64,000 nt of DNA from assembly GCA_017626035.1 (NCBI GenBank), contig JAGAJR010000026.1, forward strand, positions 1 to 64,000. Direction: 5' to 3'. The translations under genes were made by a program, and so were the position numbers. Source of the DNA: Alphaproteobacteria bacterium (GTDB lineage: Bacteria > Pseudomonadota > Alphaproteobacteria > RF32 > CAG-239). This document shows positions 7,532 through 63,715 of this stretch, in pieces. Position 1 is the stretch's first letter. Every line of letters begins with the position of its first letter. A model generated the notes under the pieces. It made no database searches. It saw nothing but the letters and a program-made list of their open reading frames with translations, and was not told the DNA's origin.

Positions 7532-8242
7532 TTGACTGAAAACAATAATAATCTACAGCATATTGCCATTATTATGGACGGGAACGGCCGTTGGGCAAAA
7601 CGGCGTGGTCTGCCGCGTGCCGCCGGCCATAAAAAAGGTGCGGAAACCGTTAAAGAAATTACGCGTGCCGCCGGAGACCTCGGTATCAAGTATTTGACGC
7701 TGTATGCTTTTTCTACGGAAAATTGGCAGAGAAGCAAAGAGGAAGTAGATACGTTAATGGGACTTCTCCGCGAATATTTGAAAAGCAACTTGGACGAGTT
7801 GAAGGAAAACAACGTTAAAATCCGTTTTATCGGCGAACGGGATATGCTGGATAAAGACATTGTCGACAGCATGGACAAACTGGAAGCCGAGACTGCCGCT
7901 AATGATGCACTGACGCTTTGTATTGCCTTAAGTTACGGTTCCAGACAAGAGATTGTCGGTGCCGTACGTAAAGTTGCCGCTTTGGCAAAAAGGGGTGATA
8001 TCTCGGTTAATGATATTGATATTAGAATGTTTTCTGATATGCTCTACACCAAAGATATACCGGATCCGGACTTATTAATCAGAACCAGCGGAGAGCAGAG
8101 AGTCAGCAATTATCTTTTGTGGCAGCTTGCTTATACCGAATTTTATTTTACCGATACTTTTTGGCCTGATTTTAATAAAAAGGAATTGGAAACTATTATT
8201 CAAAACTTTAACTCCAGGGAGAGAAGATATGGAAAAGTCTAA
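7532..8242 (+). CDS. uppS: Undecaprenyl diphosphate synthase (cis-prenyltransferase)
   Basis: A 236-residue UPP synthase making the C55 carrier lipid for peptidoglycan and LPS. Motifs in order: HIAIIMDGNGRWAKRRG, GHKKGAE, YLTLYAFSTENW and the RTSGEQRVSNYLLWQ block, all typical of the family. The start is a TTG preceded at 7-8 nt by AAGGT; no in-frame ATG occurs before the catalytic MDGNGRW motif. The end overlaps cdsA by 14 nt, suggesting translational coupling. Confidence 0.95.
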   Translation: MTENNNNLQHIAIIMDGNGRWAKRRGLPRAAGHKKGAETVKEITRAAGDLGIKYLTLYAFSTENWQRSKEEVDTLMGLLREYLKSNLDELKENNVKIRFIGERDMLDKDIVDSMDKLEAETAANDALTLCIALSYGSRQEIVGAVRKVAALAKRGDISVNDIDIRMFSDMLYTKDIPDPDLLIRTSGEQRVSNYLLWQLAYTEFYFTDTFWPDFNKKELETIIQNFNSRERRYGKV

Positions 8243-9020
8243 GAAAAGCTCTTTAATCAAGAGGACGTTAACCGCTCTTGTTCTGGCTCCTCTGACGATT
8301 GGGATTCTTTATCTCGGGCATCCTTATCTGAATGTTTTGGCCTTGGTTGCCGGGGCTATGCTTTGTTGGGAGTGGGATAATATGGTTCCGCACCGGGGAT
8401 CTACGGTTTATGTGATTTGTTATGTTACGGCATTGGCAGCCGCCGTTTTGATGTCTTGTCCGATAATGATTGCCCTGCTTATTGCCGGGGCTTCCCTTTT
8501 GGTTTGGATTAAGGCCAAAGGCGAGGGACGGAGAAACCTTTTGACGCTCGGCGTATCTTATATTTCCGTTGGTATCGGTTCGCTGGTTTGGCTGTATAAT
8601 ACCGTCGGGTTTACAACGACAATTTGGTATGTGTTGATGGTTTGGGGAATGGATATCGGCGGTTATGTTATCGGGTCTACGCTTAAAGGGCCGAAGCTGG
8701 CTCCGAAAATAAGCCCGAACAAAACCTGGTCCGGATTGGTGGGCGGAATGATGTTTGCCGTTATTATAAGTCTGATTTTTTCCAATGTTTTCGGTGCTTA
8801 CGGAAATCATTTCATTTATGCTGTTCTGGGGGCTGTTATTGCCGTTATTGCCCAGATCGGCGATTTGTTCGAATCACACATTAAAAGAAGTCTCGGCATT
8901 AAAGATTCCAGCAATTTGATTCCGGGACACGGAGGCGTTTTTGACCGTGTGGACGGTTTGATTTTTGCGGCTCCTTTTGTCGTCTTGTTGTTTAAATATG
9001 GTATGATGTTTTTAGGTTAA
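8229..9020 (+). CDS. cdsA: Phosphatidate cytidylyltransferase
   Basis: A 263-residue multi-pass membrane enzyme making CDP-diacylglycerol from phosphatidate and CTP. The C-terminal family signature is complete: SPNKTWSGLVGG, then GDLFESHIKRSLGIKDSS and PGHGGVFDRVDG. GGGAGAGAAG lies just before the ATG at 8229; longer in-frame starts would run far into uppS. It is followed by rseP after 9 nt in the conserved order uppS-cdsA-rseP-bamA. Confidence 0.95.
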   Translation: MEKSKKSSLIKRTLTALVLAPLTIGILYLGHPYLNVLALVAGAMLCWEWDNMVPHRGSTVYVICYVTALAAAVLMSCPIMIALLIAGASLLVWIKAKGEGRRNLLTLGVSYISVGIGSLVWLYNTVGFTTTIWYVLMVWGMDIGGYVIGSTLKGPKLAPKISPNKTWSGLVGGMMFAVIISLIFSNVFGAYGNHFIYAVLGAVIAVIAQIGDLFESHIKRSLGIKDSSNLIPGHGGVFDRVDGLIFAAPFVVLLFKYGMMFLG

Positions 9021-25087: not shown

Positions 25088-26653
25088 ATGGACAAAAAAG
25101 CGATTATTATCGGAGCAGGACCGGCAGGGCTTTCCGCGGCAAGTGAACTTCTTGAGCGGACGGAGATAAAGCCGGTGTTGATTGAGGAAAATGATTTTGT
25201 CGGCGGTATCAGTGCGACGATGACTTATAAAAATAATAAGATAGATATGGGCGGCCACCGTTTTTTTACCAAATCGGAGAGGGTAAATGACTGGTGGCTT
25301 TCTTTTTTGCCGCTTCAGGGAAAAGCTTCGAAAGATGATGTTTTGCTTGACCGAAAAATAGAGTTGTCGAGAGAAGAAAATGCTCCTGATCCGGAAAAGA
25401 CCGACAAGGTTATGTTGAAGAGAAATCGTGTTTCGAGAATTTTTTACTTAAAAACCTTTTTTGATTATCCGGTATCTTTGAATTTTAACACCATTAAAGG
25501 ATTGGGAATTTTCCGGATGGCAAAAATTACGCTTTCGTATTTCAAAGCATTGTTGTTGCCGATAAAACCTGAAAAAAGTTTGGAAGATTTTTTGATTAAC
25601 CGTTTCGGGCGGGAATTGTATTTGACATTTTTTAAAGACTATACCGAGAAGCTTTGGGGAATGGAATGTTCTGAAATTTCGGCGGAATGGGGTGCACAGC
25701 GGATTAAAGGAATATCAATCTTAAAGGTTTTGATGCAGATATTCAAAAGTTTAACGGGGCATAAAGGCGGAAAAACGGAAACCAGTTTTATTGACTCTTT
25801 TATGTATCCGAAATTCGGGCCGGGGCATTTGTGGTCGGAAGTGGCTGAGAAAGTTGTTGCCCGGGGAGGAGAAATCCGTCTGAGACAGAAAGTGTCTGAG
25901 TTGGTTATGGAAAACGGCCGGGTAAAAGCCGTTGTGGTTGAGAACAGCCGCGGACAAAAGGAAATTGTGGAAGGTGATATTTTCATGTCCACCATGCCGG
26001 TTAAGGATTTGATTAAAGCGATGGGAAGCAATGTTCCGGAAAATGTGAAAACCGCAGCTTCGGGATTGATGTATCGTGATTTCAGGGTGGCCGGCGTTTT
26101 GCTTGATAAGCTTCTTTTGAAAAATAATACAAAGATAAAAACTCTGAATGAGTTAATACCCGATACTTGGATTTATGTTCAGGAAAAAAATGTGCATATG
26201 GGCAGAATACAGATTTTTAACAACTGGAGCCCGTATTTGGTTGCGGAATTTCCTGATAAAGTTTGGATCGGTTTGGAATATTTTTGCAGTGAAGAAGATG
26301 AACTTTGGAAAATGTCTGACGAAGATTTTGTCGCTTTGGCACTGGGTGAGGGATGTAAGATAGGAATCTTTAAGGCTGAAGATGTGAAAGACGCTTGTTC
26401 TTTTAAGGTTAAAAAGGCTTATCCCGCTTATTTCGGAACATATGACCGTTTTGAAGAAATCCGCAGCTATACGGATAAAATTGACAATCTTTATCTTATC
26501 GGGCGAAACGGGATGCACCGTTACAACAATATGGATCATTCCGTGCTTACGGCTATGGTTGCCGTGGACAATATTGCTAACCATATTCTCAGAAGGGATA
26601 ATATCTGGAGTGTAAATACGGAAGCCGAATATCATGAAGAGAAAAAAGAATGA
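25088..26653 (+). CDS. FAD-dependent oxidoreductase (amine-oxidase/UDP-galactopyranose-mutase-like)
   Basis: A 521-residue protein with an N-terminal FAD-binding Rossmann motif ([18 protein letters not shown]) and a GGIS...[10 protein letters not shown] segment typical of NAD(P)/FAD proteins of COG1232 and UDP-galactopyranose mutase relatives. The C-terminal FAD contact is [19 protein letters not shown]. The substrate is unknown; the neighbouring GtrA, GT-C and SDR genes suggest a sugar nucleotide or lipid-linked sugar. The end overlaps the next gene by 4 nt (ATGA), so the two are coupled. Confidence 0.82.
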
Positions 26654-28110
26654 TAAATAAAAAAATAAATTTAAGTAACAATATAACAGAAAAAGTATTG
26701 TTGGTTTACTTGGTTATTTTGGCTTTTTTTATTTTGGGAACGGCCATTTATTCCGGTGTTTTGATTTTAGATGATGTGGAGCATATTCATGCTTCTTGGT
26801 TGGTGTGGCAGGGAAAAATTCCTTATCGGGATTTTTTTGAACATCATCATGCTTTGCTTTGGTATCTGTTTGCCCCGATAACGGCTGTTTTTTATAATCA
26901 GGCAATCATTGTATATGTGGCTAAATTTTTAACACTGATTGTGTCCGTTCTTACATTTTATTACTTTTATAAAATTATGGTAAAGTTTGTAACAGACAGA
27001 ATGTCAGCTTTGTTTGCTTTAGGGATTTATTTTAGCAATTGGCCGGCTTTAATCGGGGTTTCCCAATTTCGTCCGGATAATTATATGCTTTTTATGCAGA
27101 TATTGGGGATATATTACTTTTTTGAATATCTTGAAACGCAAAAAAGGCGAAATCTGGTTATCTCTTTCGGGGCTTTTTTCTTAGCTTTTATGTTTTTACA
27201 AAAGATTTTATATTTCTTTCTTCCGATGGGTTTGGCCGGATTGTATTTATTGTATAAGCACAAAGTTTTATGGACGGATGTTTTTTGGGCTTGTCTCTTT
27301 CCTTTGGCTGCGGCGTTTTTTTATCTCGGGTATTTGTATTTCACGGGAAGCCTTAAAGTTTATTATGAACTCAATTGGCTGATTAACATGCTGCATCCTA
27401 AATTATACTATGATAAAAAGATTTTATTTTTCAGCTGGTATATTTGGCTTCAGGTTGCTTTGGCTTTTGTTTCTGTTGTGTTGTGGTTTGCTAAGGGTAA
27501 TATTTATTTTAAGATATTCAGTTTGTTTTTTGCGGTGGAATTTATTTTTAAGAAATTTGTTTTTTGTCCGTATCCGCAATATCTGATGCCGTTGCTTATG
27601 GCGGGAGCCGTTTTAAGCGGAAAATTGTTGGCGTATCTTACAGAATGTAAAAAATATGTTGTTTGGATTATTGTTGTTTTGATGGAAATATTGTTGGTTG
27701 ATATGTATTCAAAATACAGGGTTATGGCAAATAACAGAAGTTTGTTGGGGTATGAATATCCGTTACTGAAATATGTTTTGGATCATACGAAAGAAGATGA
27801 ATATCTTTTGAACGGTTATGGGAAGGTATTTAATTTATATCGCAGAAATATTTATTATTATTGGTTTTCATTAGAAAGGGTTGGCGTTTTGGATAAAGAA
27901 TTATTTGATAGAGCAGATGAACCTGATTTGAATGAAGCTATAAAGACGTATCATCCTCGTTTTATCTATATGAAGGACTATTATGATGATTTTTATTTGA
28001 TGAAAAATAAAAAAGTTAAAATTGTTCATGAATTTGATAAAACATTGGTCGAAAAAATGTATAAACCGACAGAGTTTGAATATTTATATGAATTAAAAGA
28101 GAGGTATTAG
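26650..28110 (+). CDS. GT-C family integral membrane glycosyltransferase (GT39/ArnT-like)
   Basis: A 486-residue protein with about ten hydrophobic helices. The first periplasmic loop has the acidic pair LDDVEH followed by [20 protein letters not shown], the arrangement seen in polyprenyl-phosphate-sugar transferases such as the ArnT/PMT group. A soluble C-terminal tail lies at about 400-486. It would move a sugar from a polyprenyl carrier to a surface acceptor. The start overlaps the preceding FAD gene by 4 nt, and the SDR gene follows 2 nt later. Confidence 0.8.
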
Positions 28111-53741: not shown

Positions 53742-54974
53742 ATGGGAAATTATTTTGAATTAGCACAGGCAATCATCGGTGATGGCTGCGGTGCACAGGA
53801 GTTAATAAGCAAGGGATATGCAAAGGAAGACATTGAAAACGTTGAATTGCTGCAGCGGCTTCTTGAGGAAAACAACTATAAATGCAATGCCGATGGCAGA
53901 GCTTATGTTGCAGAACGGATGCCGAAGCTGAAAAAAAGAACGTTTGACGAAGACCTTTTTATGCAGGCTTTGGAAGAGGCGGAAAAAATAGGCGGCTGCC
54001 GTCCCGGAACAAAATATAAATATGTTGATGCCCGTGGGGAAAATGCAGTTGCAAAAGTTTGCAATCTGTATAAGCTTCCCTCAAGAATGGTTAATCCGTA
54101 TTTGGTTGTGTTTTCCGGAATGATGACGGCTCCGATTTATGCCATGGAAATTCTCCGCTTTTATGCCAAGCAGCATGATGAGCTTCTTCCTCTGGTTGCA
54201 ATCGGAAAAGGCGGAAACAAGGGACTTTATGAGTCTGTTTTCAACCGTCAGGAAGGTATTATGATCGGTTCCGAGTATGGGGCTTATCTGAATATGCTGG
54301 AGATGATGGCTCCGTCAGGATATGTTCGTCAGAATGAAAAAGTCTTTACGGACATGGATACGGAAGGCAACCTGTATGAACTTTATCGCTTTGCTCAGGA
54401 GCAGAATTTGGATGAAGTTACTTATGTGCTTTGTACCGGGAACTTCAGCTATGATAAACGTCTTTTGGCAGAATGGATGCTGATGTTGAAACGTCCGGAA
54501 TTTGCCGGTGTGAAAATCAACATCGTTTTGGCCCATTGTCCGCTTTGTCTGAATTTCCAAGTTCCGGAAGGACATCTTTCTGAGATTATGCTGGGTTATA
54601 TAGCTGCGTCTATCGGCCCGCTGATGAAAGACACAATCAGCTTCGACGGCAAGACAAGTTCAGAACATCCCGAACGCTATTTGATGCCAGGCGTAGACAA
54701 AGCCAAATGGCATCTGGTGCAGGATATTATCTCGGAATATTCCAACATGGGATGGCCAAACTATATGGAAATTCTTTACGGTGAAGATCATAAAGTGGCC
54801 GTGGCAAAAATTATTCTGAGCGATTTGTTAGCCAGAGACAGCTTTACTCCTGAAATGTATGATCGGGGAATTCAGCAGGATATTACGAACTATCAGAGTT
54901 TGGTAGGGAAATATTACGGCGGAAGTTTTCTTCGGTATTTGAAAAACACGATGGATTACGAATTTTTTGTATAA
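53742..54974 (+). CDS. Hypothetical protein, 410 aa
   Basis: Not recognised with confidence. A cytosolic alpha/beta protein. A conserved-looking core (VVFSGMMTAPIYAMEILRFYAKQ, LLPLVAIGKGGNKG, VTYVLCTGNFSYDKRLLAEWML) resembles the Rossmann-like DUF218/YdcF layout, with a Gly-rich loop after strand 1 and a T-G-N/G segment, but I cannot assert the family. Cys-containing turns (AHCPLCLNF) may bind a metal. Single gene with its own hairpin terminator; no informative neighbours. Confidence 0.7.
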   Translation: MGNYFELAQAIIGDGCGAQELISKGYAKEDIENVELLQRLLEENNYKCNADGRAYVAERMPKLKKRTFDEDLFMQALEEAEKIGGCRPGTKYKYVDARGENAVAKVCNLYKLPSRMVNPYLVVFSGMMTAPIYAMEILRFYAKQHDELLPLVAIGKGGNKGLYESVFNRQEGIMIGSEYGAYLNMLEMMAPSGYVRQNEKVFTDMDTEGNLYELYRFAQEQNLDEVTYVLCTGNFSYDKRLLAEWMLMLKRPEFAGVKINIVLAHCPLCLNFQVPEGHLSEIMLGYIAASIGPLMKDTISFDGKTSSEHPERYLMPGVDKAKWHLVQDIISEYSNMGWPNYMEILYGEDHKVAVAKIILSDLLARDSFTPEMYDRGIQQDITNYQSLVGKYYGGSFLRYLKNTMDYEFFV

Positions 54975-57112: not shown

Positions 57113-57141
57113 TTGACAACCCCGGTGTCTTTAAATTTAAT
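57113..57141 (+). promoter_or_regulatory. Promoter of the ATPase gene
   Basis: A perfect TTGACA, 17-bp spacer, TTTAAT, 45 bp before the ATG. CCCCGG in the spacer is unusual in this AT-rich context. Confidence 0.7.
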
Positions 57142-57185
57142 TATGTAATAATAAGTGATATTTACAAAATATATGTGGGTAAAAT

Positions 57186-60100
57186 ATGGTAAGTCAAGCA
57201 GAAGAATATGTAGAACGTCTCAAGAATGAGTATATTGACAATCAGATAAAGAGCCAAGAACGAGATTTGCTCATTCAAGATAATAATATAGAAAAAGAAC
57301 AAATAAAAGGCTATCACGGAAGAGAAATTTTAGAATTATTGCAAAATGCGGATGATGCTTTCCAAAAAATGATAAACGAAGGCAAAGTTACTAAATGTGA
57401 TTTGGAAGTAAATATAGATTATGATGAAAAAAATCATATTTTGCGTGTTGCAAATACAGGAACTTTTTTTGATTATGACGGTATAAAAGCCATAGTTCAA
57501 GGCAATAACAGTACTAAAAAAGGAAAGTATATCGGGAATAAAGGAACCGGCTTTCGTTCGATTTTGAATTGGGCTGAAGAAGTAAAAATTGTATCAGGAG
57601 ATTTTCATGTCGGTTTTAGTGAGGAATTTGCAAAAGACCTTTTAGATGAATACAAGGGAGAACAACAAATAAAAAAGCAATTGGATAAAGATCCAAATCT
57701 TCATTTTCCTATATTGGCTGTTCCATATAATTTAAAAGATTATCAAAAATATGACAAAGATAAGACTATTATTGAAGTAATAGTCAATTTTAGTAAAAAT
57801 CAGGATGATTATGCTGTTGTTAACCAAATTCAAAATATTGATATGCGAATTTTATTATTTATGCCTAACATCAGCAAAATACAGATAGATATAAATGGTA
57901 CTAAGATTTTATATCAAAAAAAACGAGGGGCAGAAGGTCGCGTCGTTTTGCGAAAAATTGTGTCTGAACAAATTGAAAAAGAAGAGCACTTTCGCTTGTT
58001 CACAAAGGTAATTGAAAAGGAACTGGAAGAAGACAATGTTAGAAAAGATATAGATTTGGCAATTGCTGTTCCTGAAAAAAATGATAATTTTCAGTCTCAA
58101 TATCTGTACTCTTATTTCCCCTTATTGAATACGCAGTCACCGTTTAATTGTATAATGCATGCCTCGTATGCTTTGAGTGCAAACAGAAATACCGTCGATT
58201 TAAGCAGTAACAATAAAAAAATAATTGAGTATCAAATTGATTTTTTGTGTGACATAATTACTGATTTGGTAAAAGAAAATAAATTTGAAATGGCATATAA
58301 TATTTTGGTTCCGCAAAATTTTCCTCAAAATATTTTTTCGGGAAAAAATTGGAATTTTCCAACTCCTTTTATCGGAATTGAAGACGTTTATTATGAAAAA
58401 ATTTCGAAAATAGCATTATTTCAAACTGTAAATGGAAAAATTATATCTCTTTTAGACAATCCTAAAACACTAGATAATAATTTTCCCGATATATTTCGGG
58501 GGGAGCCATTTGTAAATTTATTAAGACCAATTACAGATAATAGCCTTTTTAAATTTATGGATTTTTTAGCACGCAGAAATAATATTAGTTTGGGTTACGA
58601 AGAAAGTGAGCTTTGTGAAAAAATAAATGCTATATCACACCTTTGGTCAAAAGAAGATCAAGTCAGCATTTTTATATGGTGGAATAACAAATATAAAACA
58701 AAGCTACCCAATCTGCTCAAAAAACAAAATGGAGACTGGATAAAATTTGGACAAGAATGCTATTTCTTAGATGGAAATTGGCAATCTAATGACATACCTG
58801 AATGGGTAAAAATTCCGGCAATAGATAAAGAATATCAGGAGATTTTGTTTAAACAACTTAAAAATTCACCAGAAATTTTAAGCTACAAAGAAAAAGATTC
58901 GGATGCGTCTATCTCACGCTTGATCTGCCAGTCTACCCCTCCTATAATTTCATGCGTAAATTTTAAATATAGAGATAGAAGTAATATCATTACAACAATT
59001 AATAGTTCTGTAGACACTTATGATAAAGCTGTTGAATATATCAAATGGCTTTGGAAAAATTATGGAAATGATTCTAATTGGCAACCTCCCAAAGGAACAG
59101 ATACCAGTAAGATTAAGTACAACTTTCCTTGTTTATCGGGTGTTAAAGATAGTGATAAACTGTATTTTGGTTCTAAATATCATAATTTTTTAGCTAATCA
59201 TTTATTTGATGAGGAATATGATTGTTTTTCGGATCCTGAGGAATTTGGAGTAGAAATAGATATTGAAGCATTTAAGGCATTTATATCAAAGTTTGGAGTA
59301 AAAGATTATCCAAATATAGAACAGGCGGAAATGCAAGGAAATGAAATATATGAATCGTATGTTAAAATTTGTCAACAAAATATAGATACAAAAGATTTTC
59401 CTAATCCCGTTTTAAATATCTCTGTAGCAGTTATTGATGATTTGCCAAAAATATTAAAAAATCTATCAACGGAAGATGTTTTTAAATGGATTGTAAATGA
59501 TACTAAATTACAAAATCATTTACGTAACTCTTCAGAAGGACGTGACGGGAAAATAAATTATCGCACCACAAGGCAATCTATTTGGCGAAATTACGAGGGC
59601 AATGTAGGTAATTACATATTGGAAATATTTAATGAGGAAAAATGGATAAAAATAGGAAATGAAAAATTTTCTCCCAGAGATATCCTTGTTTATTCGAGTA
59701 ATAACATGAAGTTTTGCAATTTTGTACCGGTTGTTGCAATTTCTTTCAATACATCACAAAAAGTATTTAATATTGAAGAACTGGCGAAGAATATAGAAGT
59801 AGATATTGATAAAATACAGGAGATATTAGGTTATTTTGAATTTAAAAAACAGATAACGGACTTATCATCAAATACGTTTTATAGTGTGTTGCTACAAATT
59901 TCAAAAATTGAATTAAGCCAAGGAATTGATTTATGTAAAACCATATATAACATCATTCAACAACCCACATTTAGGGTAAATTATGACACATCTGTTAATA
60001 AAACAAAATTTTTTACAGAAGGTAAAATGTTAGTGAAATTTAACGGGAAACTTCAATTTATATGTGCGAAAAATGCAATTTTACCAAGTAATGCAATTAT

Positions 60101-61784
60101 TAATAAAAAAAATCTTCCTATTGTAGAAAAAGGTTTGAGAACAAATAGCGATAATTTTGTAGAGGTTTTTGGTTGTAAGAAATATGAAAGGACCTATGAA
60201 ATCGATGTGGAAAATATAGAAGTAAGCACTGCAGATCAAAAATTTCAAAATTATTTTAGCGAGTTTAAGAAGTATGCCTCGGCTTTTAGGGAAAGAAATG
60301 CAAATATAGCAAAACAAGGTAAAAATTTGAGTATTAAACTTGCAGCAAAAATTCCAGTTATAGAGAAAAATTCAATTAATTTTGTGGAAGAGGAATATTC
60401 ATATATAAATAGCACACAAACAAATTGGTATGTAAAAGTAACAGGCGAAAATTTTGATGTAATGAGATTAGCAAATGTTATTAAAGATATATATGAACAT
60501 TTAGCTAATACGCCTGGATTTGATGCTGCAAAATTAAGGGAACTTTTTAGTAGAGAAAAGAAGAGTGACAGAGAATTGTTGATAGAAGATGAATTTGGAA
60601 CATTAGATGTAATTGAAGAGAAAAGCTATGCAGATCGTGTAAAAGGTAACTTCTTTAGTAGGATCAGACAGTTTAAGAATGATTATGATTTTAATACTAT
60701 AGATATTGATTTTTTTGATTTTACCGAAAACAATTTTGATAACAGTCAAAAAATCATAGAAATTTTCAAACAATTAAATATCGATGTTAAAGATTTTTGT
60801 GATAAAAATTTTGACTATCCAATTAATTTAATGCCATATTTTGAAAAGAAAGTCAGGGATTTTATTGCTGATAAATGCAAATATTATAAAAATTTTTTAT
60901 ATACACAAGCTCTCAATGATGAAACAAAGCAAAAAACTTTTTTTGCTGATTGTGAAGCGTTTGAAAATTATAGGCTATCGGAAAACATAAATACAGTATA
61001 TTTTGATACAGAACAATATATTAAAAACAAATTTAAATTTGATATTAGTGATATTTCCCAATGGATGTCAGCTGATAATGCATACGAAAATAACTATGAC
61101 AAATTAAACCCTAAGGATCTATTCGGAGAAGAAATTTCTAACGATTATAATGTACAGCAGATAATTTATTTTAATAAATCTGAAGAATTCAAAAATTGGC
61201 TTAATAAACAAACAGAAAAAGTATCTCATGCACCCAATCAGTCGGTAAACGATGATTATTCTCAATATAAAGATAAGATTCCTCAAGAAACAGAAATTAA
61301 CTACAGAGAAAGTATACCAATCGTTGAAGGAACACATCACCAGAGAAACGGGACATACAATCTTAACAAAGATATTGAAACAAAGAAGAAAAACAAAAAA
61401 TGTGGCAACATTGGAGAACTATTAATATACAATTTATTATGTTCAAAATATGGAGAAAATAATGTCTTTCCTAGATCAGAGGCATTTATCGATTTAAAAA
61501 TATTAAAGCCAGGACAAGCAAGATCAGGAGATTATGATTTATCCTATATTGCTGATGATGGAGTAGAATATTTTGTTGAAGTAAAGACAGGAAAAGAAGG
61601 CTTGTTTTATATATCAGAAAGTGAACTGGACTACGCTAAGAAGAATAGTGATAAGTATAAGCTTTTTTGCGTATTTAATATTGAACAGGAAAATCCAAAT
61701 TATATTGAATTGCCGAAAAAATTTTGGGAAGATGAGAGATATAAACTAGAATACGATACAAAGATACTGGTTTGTACGTTTTAG
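57186..61784 (+). CDS. Sacsin/NO VEIN-type GHKL ATPase with C-terminal NOV_C (DUF3883) domain
   Basis: 1532 residues. The N-terminal HATPase resembles the sacsin_N fold: N-box ILELLQNADDA (E50, N54, D57), then IGNKGTGFRSIL (G117-S125) as the G-rich lid. The long middle (about 330-1380) has no motif I know. The C-terminus (about 1390-1500) has GELLIYNLL...GDYDLSYIADDGVEYFVEVKTGKEG, the PD-(D/E)xK-like pattern of DUF3883/NOV_C. This pairing is known from the plant protein NO VEIN and from bacterial proteins found in defence islands. Codon use is strongly A/T-biased, unlike neighbours, indicating horizontal transfer. The ATG lacks a strong Shine-Dalgarno. It is a lone gene with its own promoter; no methylase, helicase or integrase is adjacent. 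Confidence 0.85.
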   Translation: MVSQAEEYVERLKNEYIDNQIKSQERDLLIQDNNIEKEQIKGYHGREILELLQNADDAFQKMINEGKVTKCDLEVNIDYDEKNHILRVANTGTFFDYDGIKAIVQGNNSTKKGKYIGNKGTGFRSILNWAEEVKIVSGDFHVGFSEEFAKDLLDEYKGEQQIKKQLDKDPNLHFPILAVPYNLKDYQKYDKDKTIIEVIVNFSKNQDDYAVVNQIQNIDMRILLFMPNISKIQIDINGTKILYQKKRGAEGRVVLRKIVSEQIEKEEHFRLFTKVIEKELEEDNVRKDIDLAIAVPEKNDNFQSQYLYSYFPLLNTQSPFNCIMHASYALSANRNTVDLSSNNKKIIEYQIDFLCDIITDLVKENKFEMAYNILVPQNFPQNIFSGKNWNFPTPFIGIEDVYYEKISKIALFQTVNGKIISLLDNPKTLDNNFPDIFRGEPFVNLLRPITDNSLFKFMDFLARRNNISLGYEESELCEKINAISHLWSKEDQVSIFIWWNNKYKTKLPNLLKKQNGDWIKFGQECYFLDGNWQSNDIPEWVKIPAIDKEYQEILFKQLKNSPEILSYKEKDSDASISRLICQSTPPIISCVNFKYRDRSNIITTINSSVDTYDKAVEYIKWLWKNYGNDSNWQPPKGTDTSKIKYNFPCLSGVKDSDKLYFGSKYHNFLANHLFDEEYDCFSDPEEFGVEIDIEAFKAFISKFGVKDYPNIEQAEMQGNEIYESYVKICQQNIDTKDFPNPVLNISVAVIDDLPKILKNLSTEDVFKWIVNDTKLQNHLRNSSEGRDGKINYRTTRQSIWRNYEGNVGNYILEIFNEEKWIKIGNEKFSPRDILVYSSNNMKFCNFVPVVAISFNTSQKVFNIEELAKNIEVDIDKIQEILGYFEFKKQITDLSSNTFYSVLLQISKIELSQGIDLCKTIYNIIQQPTFRVNYDTSVNKTKFFTEGKMLVKFNGKLQFICAKNAILPSNAIINKKNLPIVEKGLRTNSDNFVEVFGCKKYERTYEIDVENIEVSTADQKFQNYFSEFKKYASAFRERNANIAKQGKNLSIKLAAKIPVIEKNSINFVEEEYSYINSTQTNWYVKVTGENFDVMRLANVIKDIYEHLANTPGFDAAKLRELFSREKKSDRELLIEDEFGTLDVIEEKSYADRVKGNFFSRIRQFKNDYDFNTIDIDFFDFTENNFDNSQKIIEIFKQLNIDVKDFCDKNFDYPINLMPYFEKKVRDFIADKCKYYKNFLYTQALNDETKQKTFFADCEAFENYRLSENINTVYFDTEQYIKNKFKFDISDISQWMSADNAYENNYDKLNPKDLFGEEISNDYNVQQIIYFNKSEEFKNWLNKQTEKVSHAPNQSVNDDYSQYKDKIPQETEINYRESIPIVEGTHHQRNGTYNLNKDIETKKKNKKCGNIGELLIYNLLCSKYGENNVFPRSEAFIDLKILKPGQARSGDYDLSYIADDGVEYFVEVKTGKEGLFYISESELDYAKKNSDKYKLFCVFNIEQENPNYIELPKKFWEDERYKLEYDTKILVCTF

Positions 61785-62443: not shown

Positions 62444-62546
62444 GAGGTCGCTGGTTCTTGTCGGTAATTCAATCCAATAAAAAAAACTGCCGCAAAGGGC
62501 AGTTTTTTTTATTGGTCGGAATGACTGGACTCGAACCAGCGACCTC
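62444..62546. repeat. Palindrome containing an inverted copy of the tRNA-Pro 3' half
   Basis: The left arm on the plus strand begins GAGGTCGCTGGTTC, identical to 14 nt of the tRNA-Pro T-arm region. It continues with an eroded acceptor end and CCAATAAAAAAAACTGCC. The right arm is the real tRNA-Pro 3' half read on the minus strand plus its terminator stem. The apex is GCAAAG. Confidence 0.8.
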
Positions 62547-62589
62547 TTCGTCCCGAACGAAGCGTTCTACCAGGCTGAACTACATTCCG
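62513..62589 (-). tRNA. tRNA-Pro (CGG)
   Basis: Minus strand: acceptor CGGAATG/CATTCCG, discriminator A, encoded CCA. Anticodon stem CTTCG/CGAAG with loop TTCGGGA gives anticodon CGG. The terminator stem (18 bp) begins at the CCA. Confidence 0.97.
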
Positions 62590-62727: not shown

Positions 62728-63594
62728 TTATTTTTTTGTTGTTTTTTTCTTTTCTTCTTTTTTGTAAGTTTTTACGCGGATACGGCCTTTAGACGGGATT
62801 TCGGAGATGGCTTTGATTGCTTTTTGCGTTAATCCGTTTAAGTCGTCTTTTTCCGCAGAGGAACAAATACCCAATAACATTTGGATGTTAAAGCTTTGCG
62901 AACCGTTTTTAATTTCAATATTGTTAACGCTTTCCAAAACGCGTTCGGATACTTTTTTAGCAATTTTTTCGTCAGTATTAGCCAGATAAATTGCAAATAA
63001 ATTATCGTCAATACGAGCAATAAAGTCGCTGTCCCGCAAAGCTTTTTCCAATGTTTTGGCGGTGTATTTCAATGCCCGGTTGCGGTACTTTCCGCCCATT
63101 TGTTCATGGATGGTTTCCAGATTGTTTATTTTTCCGACAACAATAGAAAACGGTTGTTTATGAATTGTGGATTCAATGATTTTTTGAGAAACGCTTTCTT
63201 CGTAGTATCTTTTATTGAAGACATAAGTTAACGGATCTCTGCGGTAACGTTCGATTTTATCCTCTTCGTCGTAGTACAAAATTAAAAGCAAAATGAGGAA
63301 TGTGAATAAAAATGTTATCAAGTTGGCAATGGCCATAATCCATGAATCGAGATAAACGCCGTATGCAAACCAACAAATCAAGCTTAAGCTGTACATGGTG
63401 TACATATAGCTGGATAATCCGGTAATGTTTTTGGTTCTAAGAATACGGACTGTTTGAATGGCAAATGCGGAAACGGTTGCCAGTCCGGCGGCATAACCGA
63501 TATAAGCATAAATTGTTCCATCCGAGAACATTAAATTTGTAACTTCTATTACTGTAGAAATAAACTCAGATACTGTATTTAGACACCCCGTCAT
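62728..63594 (-). CDS. SemiSWEET/PQ-loop-like membrane domain fused to a degenerate GGDEF domain
   Basis: 288 residues. Residues about 25-110 are a three-helix PQ-loop/SemiSWEET-like unit: IGYAAGLATVSAFAIQTVRI, then NITGLSSYMYTMYSLSLICWFAYG. A linker (EEDKIERYRRDPLTYVFNKRYYEE) leads into a GGDEF-fold domain starting with the usual RDxLT-x-x-x-NKRYYEE pattern. The catalytic GGDEF is replaced by DDNLF in FIARIDDNLFAIYLA, so diguanylate cyclase activity is unlikely. It ends with a Lys-rich tail. AGGGGA 6 nt before the ATG at 63594 supports this start. Probably a membrane sensor; its ligand is unknown. Confidence 0.75.
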   Translation of the reverse strand: MTGCLNTVSEFISTVIEVTNLMFSDGTIYAYIGYAAGLATVSAFAIQTVRILRTKNITGLSSYMYTMYSLSLICWFAYGVYLDSWIMAIANLITFLFTFLILLLILYYDEEDKIERYRRDPLTYVFNKRYYEESVSQKIIESTIHKQPFSIVVGKINNLETIHEQMGGKYRNRALKYTAKTLEKALRDSDFIARIDDNLFAIYLANTDEKIAKKVSERVLESVNNIEIKNGSQSFNIQMLLGICSSAEKDDLNGLTQKAIKAISEIPSKGRIRVKTYKKEEKKKTTKK

Positions 63595-63715
63595 ATTTAA
63601 TCCCCTGATAATTTTCACAATACAATTATTTTATAATAAAAGCAGATAAAAGTAAAAAAATATTTACATCCGGGATAAAAAAGCGATAATTGGTAATTCA
63701 AGCGAGCGTATCGGG

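Follow-up and report, generated by a model that had tools for sequence, protein, structure and literature searches.

A complete Tiamat (TmtA)-family gene, probably acquired horizontally, in a small-genome alphaproteobacterium

In a 64,000-nucleotide stretch of DNA from an alphaproteobacterium of the order RF32 (contig JAGAJR010000026.1; hereafter, the window), we identified an intact AT-rich gene that most likely encodes a horizontally acquired anti-phage protein of the Tiamat (TmtA) family, in which an ATP-driven clamp would license a nuclease. Judged by its end-to-end profile match, the gene belongs to a single-gene defence family that has already been described and is not a new system. What is new is the presence of an intact copy in a lineage that otherwise lacks the gene or carries decaying copies, together with a residue-level and fold-level case, built on conservation and predicted structures, for an ATPase-nuclease model.

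Results

The 1532-codon open reading frame (Table 1) is uninterrupted, with zero internal stops. Its product matched the PADLOC TmtA model PDLC03964 from end to end (residues 3 to 1524 against model positions 7 to 1528 of 1538, 913.7 bits, E 7.8e-275). TmtA is, as we take it, the PADLOC name for the Tiamat protein, and Tiamat is reportedly one of the systems in the set of Millman et al. 2022. Later papers place Tiamat in that set and give its mechanism as unknown (PMC12926258; PMC10482375). The score of the window protein lay within the range seen for plasmid-encoded homologues of Hymenobacter, Agrobacterium and Methylorubrum (871 to 932 bits) and a little below that of homologues from Paenibacillus, Clostridiaceae and Bacillus (1069 to 1280 bits), the Bacillus homologue L051 being the best scorer among those tested (1280 bits). 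Further traits of Tiamat were also found, namely, a single gene with an N-terminal Hsp90-like HATPase, lying between flanks without PADLOC matches, and a C-terminal NOV_C/DUF3883 domain. A previous reading of this DNA (the earlier note) had proposed a candidate single-gene defence system. This proposal was supported and the protein is beyond a mere candidate, given its full-length match to TmtA; since the family is already catalogued as anti-phage, the novelty is lower than the wording of the earlier note. By family, a defence role can be assigned to the window protein with high confidence. With the single sequence as query, scans of genome contigs and of viral contigs and a phmmer search of the PDB gave no matches, and no phage records were found.

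We then compared the two ends of the protein with known domains. At the N terminus, NCBIfam P_loop_sacsin matched residues 46 to 135 (60.8 bits, above the cut-off). In an alignment of 75 full-length proteins (the window protein and 74 homologues), Y43, R46, E50, Q53, N54, D57, I116, G117, K119, G120, G122, F123, T194, R334, N343 and P538 were invariant to rounding, and the GxKGxGFR lid motif was invariant or nearly so. The GHKL residues E50, N54 and D57 and the glycine-rich lid had thus been named correctly, with all three residues and G117, K119, G120, G122 and F123 at 100%. The structure was predicted with AlphaFold2 in two overlapping segments, residues 1 to 1120 and 1001 to 1532 (61- and 51-row alignments), with mean pLDDT values of 89.3 and 89.6, respectively. 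Foldseek searches of the PDB with the N-terminal model returned Hsp90, TRAP1 and HtpG (E about 1e-10), and a PDB profile search gave sacsin 5v47 as its sole match (E 0.009). In the models, the front of the protein is predicted to adopt an Hsp90 N-plus-middle architecture; the borders of the middle-domain-like region were read from secondary structure. R334 and N343 fall in this region, and R334 may correspond to the catalytic arginine of Hsp90-type middle domains.

The stretch of about 1000 residues that had been described as having no recognisable motif proved to be spanned by the TmtA model, and the part that follows the ATPase takes the Hsp90 middle fold. Weak internal repeats in the middle region (residues ~470-506 with 591-629 and ~697-708 with 989-1000) are suggestive only, profile self-similarity being weak (best hhalign probability, 81.5%).

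At the C terminus, Pfam NOV_C matched residues 1448 to 1504 (41.5 bits, E 1.4e-10). Among the 75 proteins, D1451 and K1467 were conserved in 100%, E1465 and E1411 in 96% and E1480 in 96-97%, and the PD-(D/E)xK set (E1411 on its helix, D1451 and E1465-x-K1467) was found on the predicted core fold. Foldseek placed archaeal Hjc resolvases first and then AvaII (E values of 0.03 and above, probabilities reaching 0.98), and the first 33 matches listed were all Hjc-type resolvases, AvaII or the SPARDA effector complex. The best E values are modest (0.03, at probability 0.97) because the nuclease makes up about a quarter of the 532-aa query. The models thus predict an Hjc/AvaII-like nuclease fold for the back of the protein, in agreement with the nuclease-like C terminus and D-x-EVK pattern of the earlier note, which had named the lack of such a fold as grounds for rejection. 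Its list of active-site residues was right for D1451, E1465 and K1467 and missed the helix glutamate E1411. On conservation, then, the window protein carries both a complete Bergerat site and a complete PD-(D/E)xK site. No demonstration of nuclease activity of Tiamat was found in the literature searched.

Table 1. Features of the tmtA-like locus (window coordinates)
Feature	Position	Strand	Basis or remark
Putative promoter	57113..57141	+	TTGACA 57113-57118, 17-nt spacer, TTTAAT 57136-57141; read from sequence
tmtA-like gene, Tiamat-family protein	57186-61784	+	1532 aa; PADLOC TmtA PDLC03964 match
Sacsin/Hsp90-type GHKL (Bergerat) ATPase domain, ~residues 1-235	57186..57890	+	P_loop_sacsin, conservation, Foldseek, profile match
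E50; N54; D57	57333-57335; 57345-57347; 57354-57356	+	GHKL residues
Glycine-rich lid G117-S125	57534-57560	+	
Hsp90-middle-domain-like region, ~residues 236-400	57891..58385	+	AlphaFold pLDDT about 90, Foldseek to Hsp90 N+M
Central and helical regions, ~residues 401-1392, family-specific	58386..61361	+	TmtA model coverage; well-predicted AlphaFold models
NOV_C/DUF3883 PD-(D/E)xK-type domain, ~residues 1393-1532	61362..61784	+	Pfam, conservation, Foldseek
E1411; D1451; E1465	61416-61418; 61536-61538; 61578-61580	+	
K1467; E1480	61584-61586; 61623-61625	+	
tRNA-Pro (cgg)	62513..62589	-	ARAGORN; neighbour, possible integration landmark

The base composition of the gene was unlike that of the surrounding genome, as had been claimed. 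Its GC content was 28.9% and its GC3 21.8%, against 42.6% ± 3.9 and 43.7% ± 5.1 for the 35 other open reading frames of the window (z of -3.5 and -4.3, respectively), so that the core-like composition that would have spoken against a foreign origin was not observed. Over the following 20 kb of contig, GC was 43.1%. Another long open reading frame, at 26650-28110, ranked second in the window for AT-richness (31.6% GC). We also compared the GC of tmtA with that of its flanks in 68 homologue loci from many phyla (e.g., L029, L030 and L031). It was below the flanks in 61 of the 68 loci (median gap, 4.8 points; Wilcoxon p 8e-11), whereas the longest other open reading frame of each locus was below them in only 25 of 63. 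AT-richness is therefore characteristic of the family, besides pointing to a recent arrival.

The distribution of the gene was then investigated. The 153 genomes of the host's order contained one intact copy, that of the window, and two broken copies in another genus, which is not the lineage-wide conservation that would argue against acquisition. A sample of 398 genomes of the phylum added one near-complete match (G494). One broken copy is found in the alphaproteobacterial MAG RGIG9125 from water deer (L045, positions 8001-8911); it is 83% identical to the window protein over residues 1 to 166, is frameshifted near residue 168 and is truncated near residue 307. An unclassified gene, a YgjP-like protease gene and HsdR and HsdS genes lie downstream of it. 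The second remnant (genome G274, L160) sits at a contig start and, in a comparison by eye, has the same sequence downstream. Between the window gene and L045, dN was 0.145 and dS 0.70, i.e., a dN/dS of about 0.2 over the 304 comparable codons, and part of this change may follow the decay of the L045 copy.

A GTDB genome scan for tmtA homologues yielded 80 loci. The nearest full-length relatives, 39-46% identical, belong to Bacillota, Spirochaetota, Bacteroidota and Fibrobacterota and are mostly from the gut; a Bacillus member is about 22% identical. In the tree, the window protein fell in a clade (SH-aLRT 100) with proteins of Oscillospiraceae, Paenibacillus, Mogibacterium, Treponema, Bacteroidales and Fibrobacter, many of them from gut samples, and the members from Spirochaetota, Fibrobacterota and Pseudomonadota were each scattered across the tree. 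With its nearest relatives in other phyla and mostly in the gut, transfer of the gene is clear, and this cross-phylum tree bears out the horizontal acquisition that had been suggested.

The locus itself is solitary. The gene lies in gene-poor DNA, with 456 bp and ~730 bp of non-coding flank and the tRNA-Pro(cgg) gene 729 bp downstream, much as the earlier note had it (a tRNA about 700 bp away). Three of the neighbouring genes encode unclassified proteins; the others encode a Sir2 protein, a family 2 glycosyltransferase and a SemiSWEET-GGDEF protein. PADLOC models had zero matches among the flanking genes, confirming that the gene stands alone here, outside any defence island; island context was observed in relatives only. 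The promoter had been called near consensus: its -35 element is an exact TTGACA, which is kept, with its spacing, upstream of the broken L045 copy, and its -10 element departs from consensus. A generic promoter scan did not list the site because the TTTAAT lacks an A at position 2.

We looked for traces of integration and for the empty site. The window holds a single copy of the 3'-end sequence of the tRNA-Pro gene, for which no direct-repeat partner was found, and the three integrases of the host genome (1.64 Mb) are all on other contigs; an element with attL/attR is therefore not demonstrated, and integration at tRNA-Pro was set aside. A 20-nt piece of L045 (7680-7699), ~300 bp upstream of the broken copy, resembles the tRNA-Pro 3' end. 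Its counterpart in the window is at 62512-62531, where the whole tRNA-Pro lies ~730 bp downstream of the gene. The tRNA-Pro is possibly an integration landmark common to both loci. Part of it also recurs as an inverted 19-nt copy (62444-62462 versus 62528-62546, 89%), which adjoins a 28-nt terminator-like hairpin. The proteins of the flanking genes at 53742-54974 and 62728-63618 were located in relatives, and other genera were compared through them. The exact empty site was not found in the relatives because gene order around these genes is not kept in other genera. The first (+ strand) encodes a 410-aa protein without a Pfam family; 16 of 49 family genomes have it, and its position varies among them. 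The second (- strand) encodes a fusion of a SemiSWEET/MtN3 membrane domain with a GGDEF domain; versions 45-60% identical are present in about ten family relatives, some with an in-frame stop.

In a further step, 940 neighbours of homologues were clustered. No conserved upstream partner gene was found in the closest orthologues. HsdR-type and HsdM-type neighbours each occurred in ten loci and HsdS-type neighbours in nine. In the Bacteroidota loci L062, L094, L087, L091 and L097, an hsdR-type gene directly follows tmtA, which is preceded by hsdM- and hsdS-type genes; in L062 and L094, tmtA sits between an HsdS-type gene and HsdR at junctions of -2 to +11 bp. Identities were checked with Pfam in L062 (HsdM, HsdS and HsdR), L094 (HsdR) and L045 (HsdR and HsdS). 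This arrangement points to a possible functional coupling of tmtA to type I restriction in these Bacteroidota loci. A type I restriction component was rejected for the window, where linked hsdM, hsdS and hsdR genes are absent from the flanks and HsdR is absent from the whole host genome. Twelve other loci, mostly alphaproteobacterial (L080, L081, L083, L088, L089, L096, L098, L099, L101, L106, L068 and L065), carry upstream of tmtA a gene for a mostly ~1100-aa RNase_H_2 plus AAA_12 helicase-type protein (the L065 and L083 versions are shorter; only that of L080 was checked for domains), which together with tmtA possibly forms a two-gene variant. In L025 and L024, tmtA adjoins DruA (Druantia) and an AbiEii gene, respectively. 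A PADLOC tally of 120 neighbours, given no weight because it has no control set, contained dynamin-like LeoA/LeoBC and many methyltransferase models.

Discussion

The mechanism that we propose for TmtA follows by analogy from VcSduA, a GHKL-type Shedu (paraMORC3-like) protein of V. cholerae that combines GHKL and PD-(D/E)xK domains in direct phage restriction (PMC12137116). Substitution E27A or K557A abolishes phage protection by VcSduA, indicating that both active sites are required (PMC12137116). By analogy, TmtA would dimerise like other GHKL ATPases, and ATP binding would shut its Hsp90-like clamp. An infection signal, such as a phage protein or a nucleic-acid structure, would be sensed by the middle and helical regions, and the ATPase cycle would then license DNA cutting by the C-terminal nuclease, which would stop the phage directly or through killing of the cell. 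The two proteins, likened by description, share a one-gene format, an N-terminal GHKL ATPase and a C-terminal PD-(D/E)xK nuclease; however, the nuclease lysine of the far shorter VcSduA is K557, and its nuclease is a DUF4263 domain and not NOV_C. Membership in Shedu (SduA) was rejected, since Pfam finds NOV_C and no DUF4263 in the window protein. From Tiamat, which it resembles in its single large gene, whole-length profile match and both terminal domains, the window protein differs in nothing qualitative, only in its distance from other members.

Other readings of the gene were weighed. It is unlikely that TmtA is an Hsp90/sacsin-like accessory of type I restriction or of other defence enzymes, the window copy then being an orphan. 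Such a role would fit the tight hsdS-tmtA-hsdR junctions of L062 and L094, the broken L045 copy near hsdR/hsdS and the 12 loci with a conserved helicase/RNase_H_2-type gene just upstream; however, no conserved partner accompanies most homologues, the closest full-length ones among them, the host has no HsdR, the family is listed as a system of one gene and the supposed orphan keeps its nuclease residues. The full set of intact catalytic residues and the intact 1532-codon frame, along with the conserved -35 element and a dN/dS of about 0.2 over 304 codons (to which L045 decay may contribute), make it quite improbable that the gene is a silent, decaying passenger, i.e., acquired cargo without present function in its host, as its strong AT bias, its lack of island partners and the broken remnants in two relatives might otherwise suggest.

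It is very improbable that the protein has no link to phage and is instead a stress chaperone or an ATPase-nuclease of genome maintenance. The strong Hsp90 fold is compatible with such a role, a nuclease fold like that of Hjc could be used in DNA repair, and the eukaryotic relatives sacsin and NO VEIN have cellular roles. Yet almost all relatives of the host lack the gene, which is AT-rich and spread over phyla, and relatives of the protein have defence-gene neighbourhoods. We thus retain a Tiamat-family anti-phage protein as the best explanation.

NO VEIN, a plant protein, ends in NOV_C. The window protein is like sacsin and NO VEIN in its sacsin-like ATPase, a likeness seen at residue level in the sacsin 5v47 profile match only, and like NO VEIN in its C-terminal end; it differs from both in that their roles are cellular. 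"Tiamat" calls in plant metagenomes turned out to be plant genome sequence (PMC12409356), which fits the NOV_C domain common to plant NO VEIN. DUF3883 has been called a novel REase domain (PMC3710099). The SNF2 helicase-DUF3883 restriction proteins described there likewise place this nuclease-type domain at the C terminus of a defence protein, with an SNF2 helicase as motor in place of the Hsp90-like ATPase. More broadly, and as a rather doubtful extension, TmtA might be an Hsp90-type immune clamp, a general infection sensor with exchangeable output that acts alone or coupled to restriction, of which plant NO VEIN would be an immune-derived relative.

As the mechanism of Tiamat is still listed as unknown, the residue conservation and the two-ended fold assignment enable a direct test. 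A small-genome, gut-type lineage of alphaproteobacteria that otherwise lacks the system, or has it in broken form, is now seen to hold a complete Tiamat gene, and the finding shows that one TmtA subfamily moves among unrelated phyla, mostly of gut bacteria.
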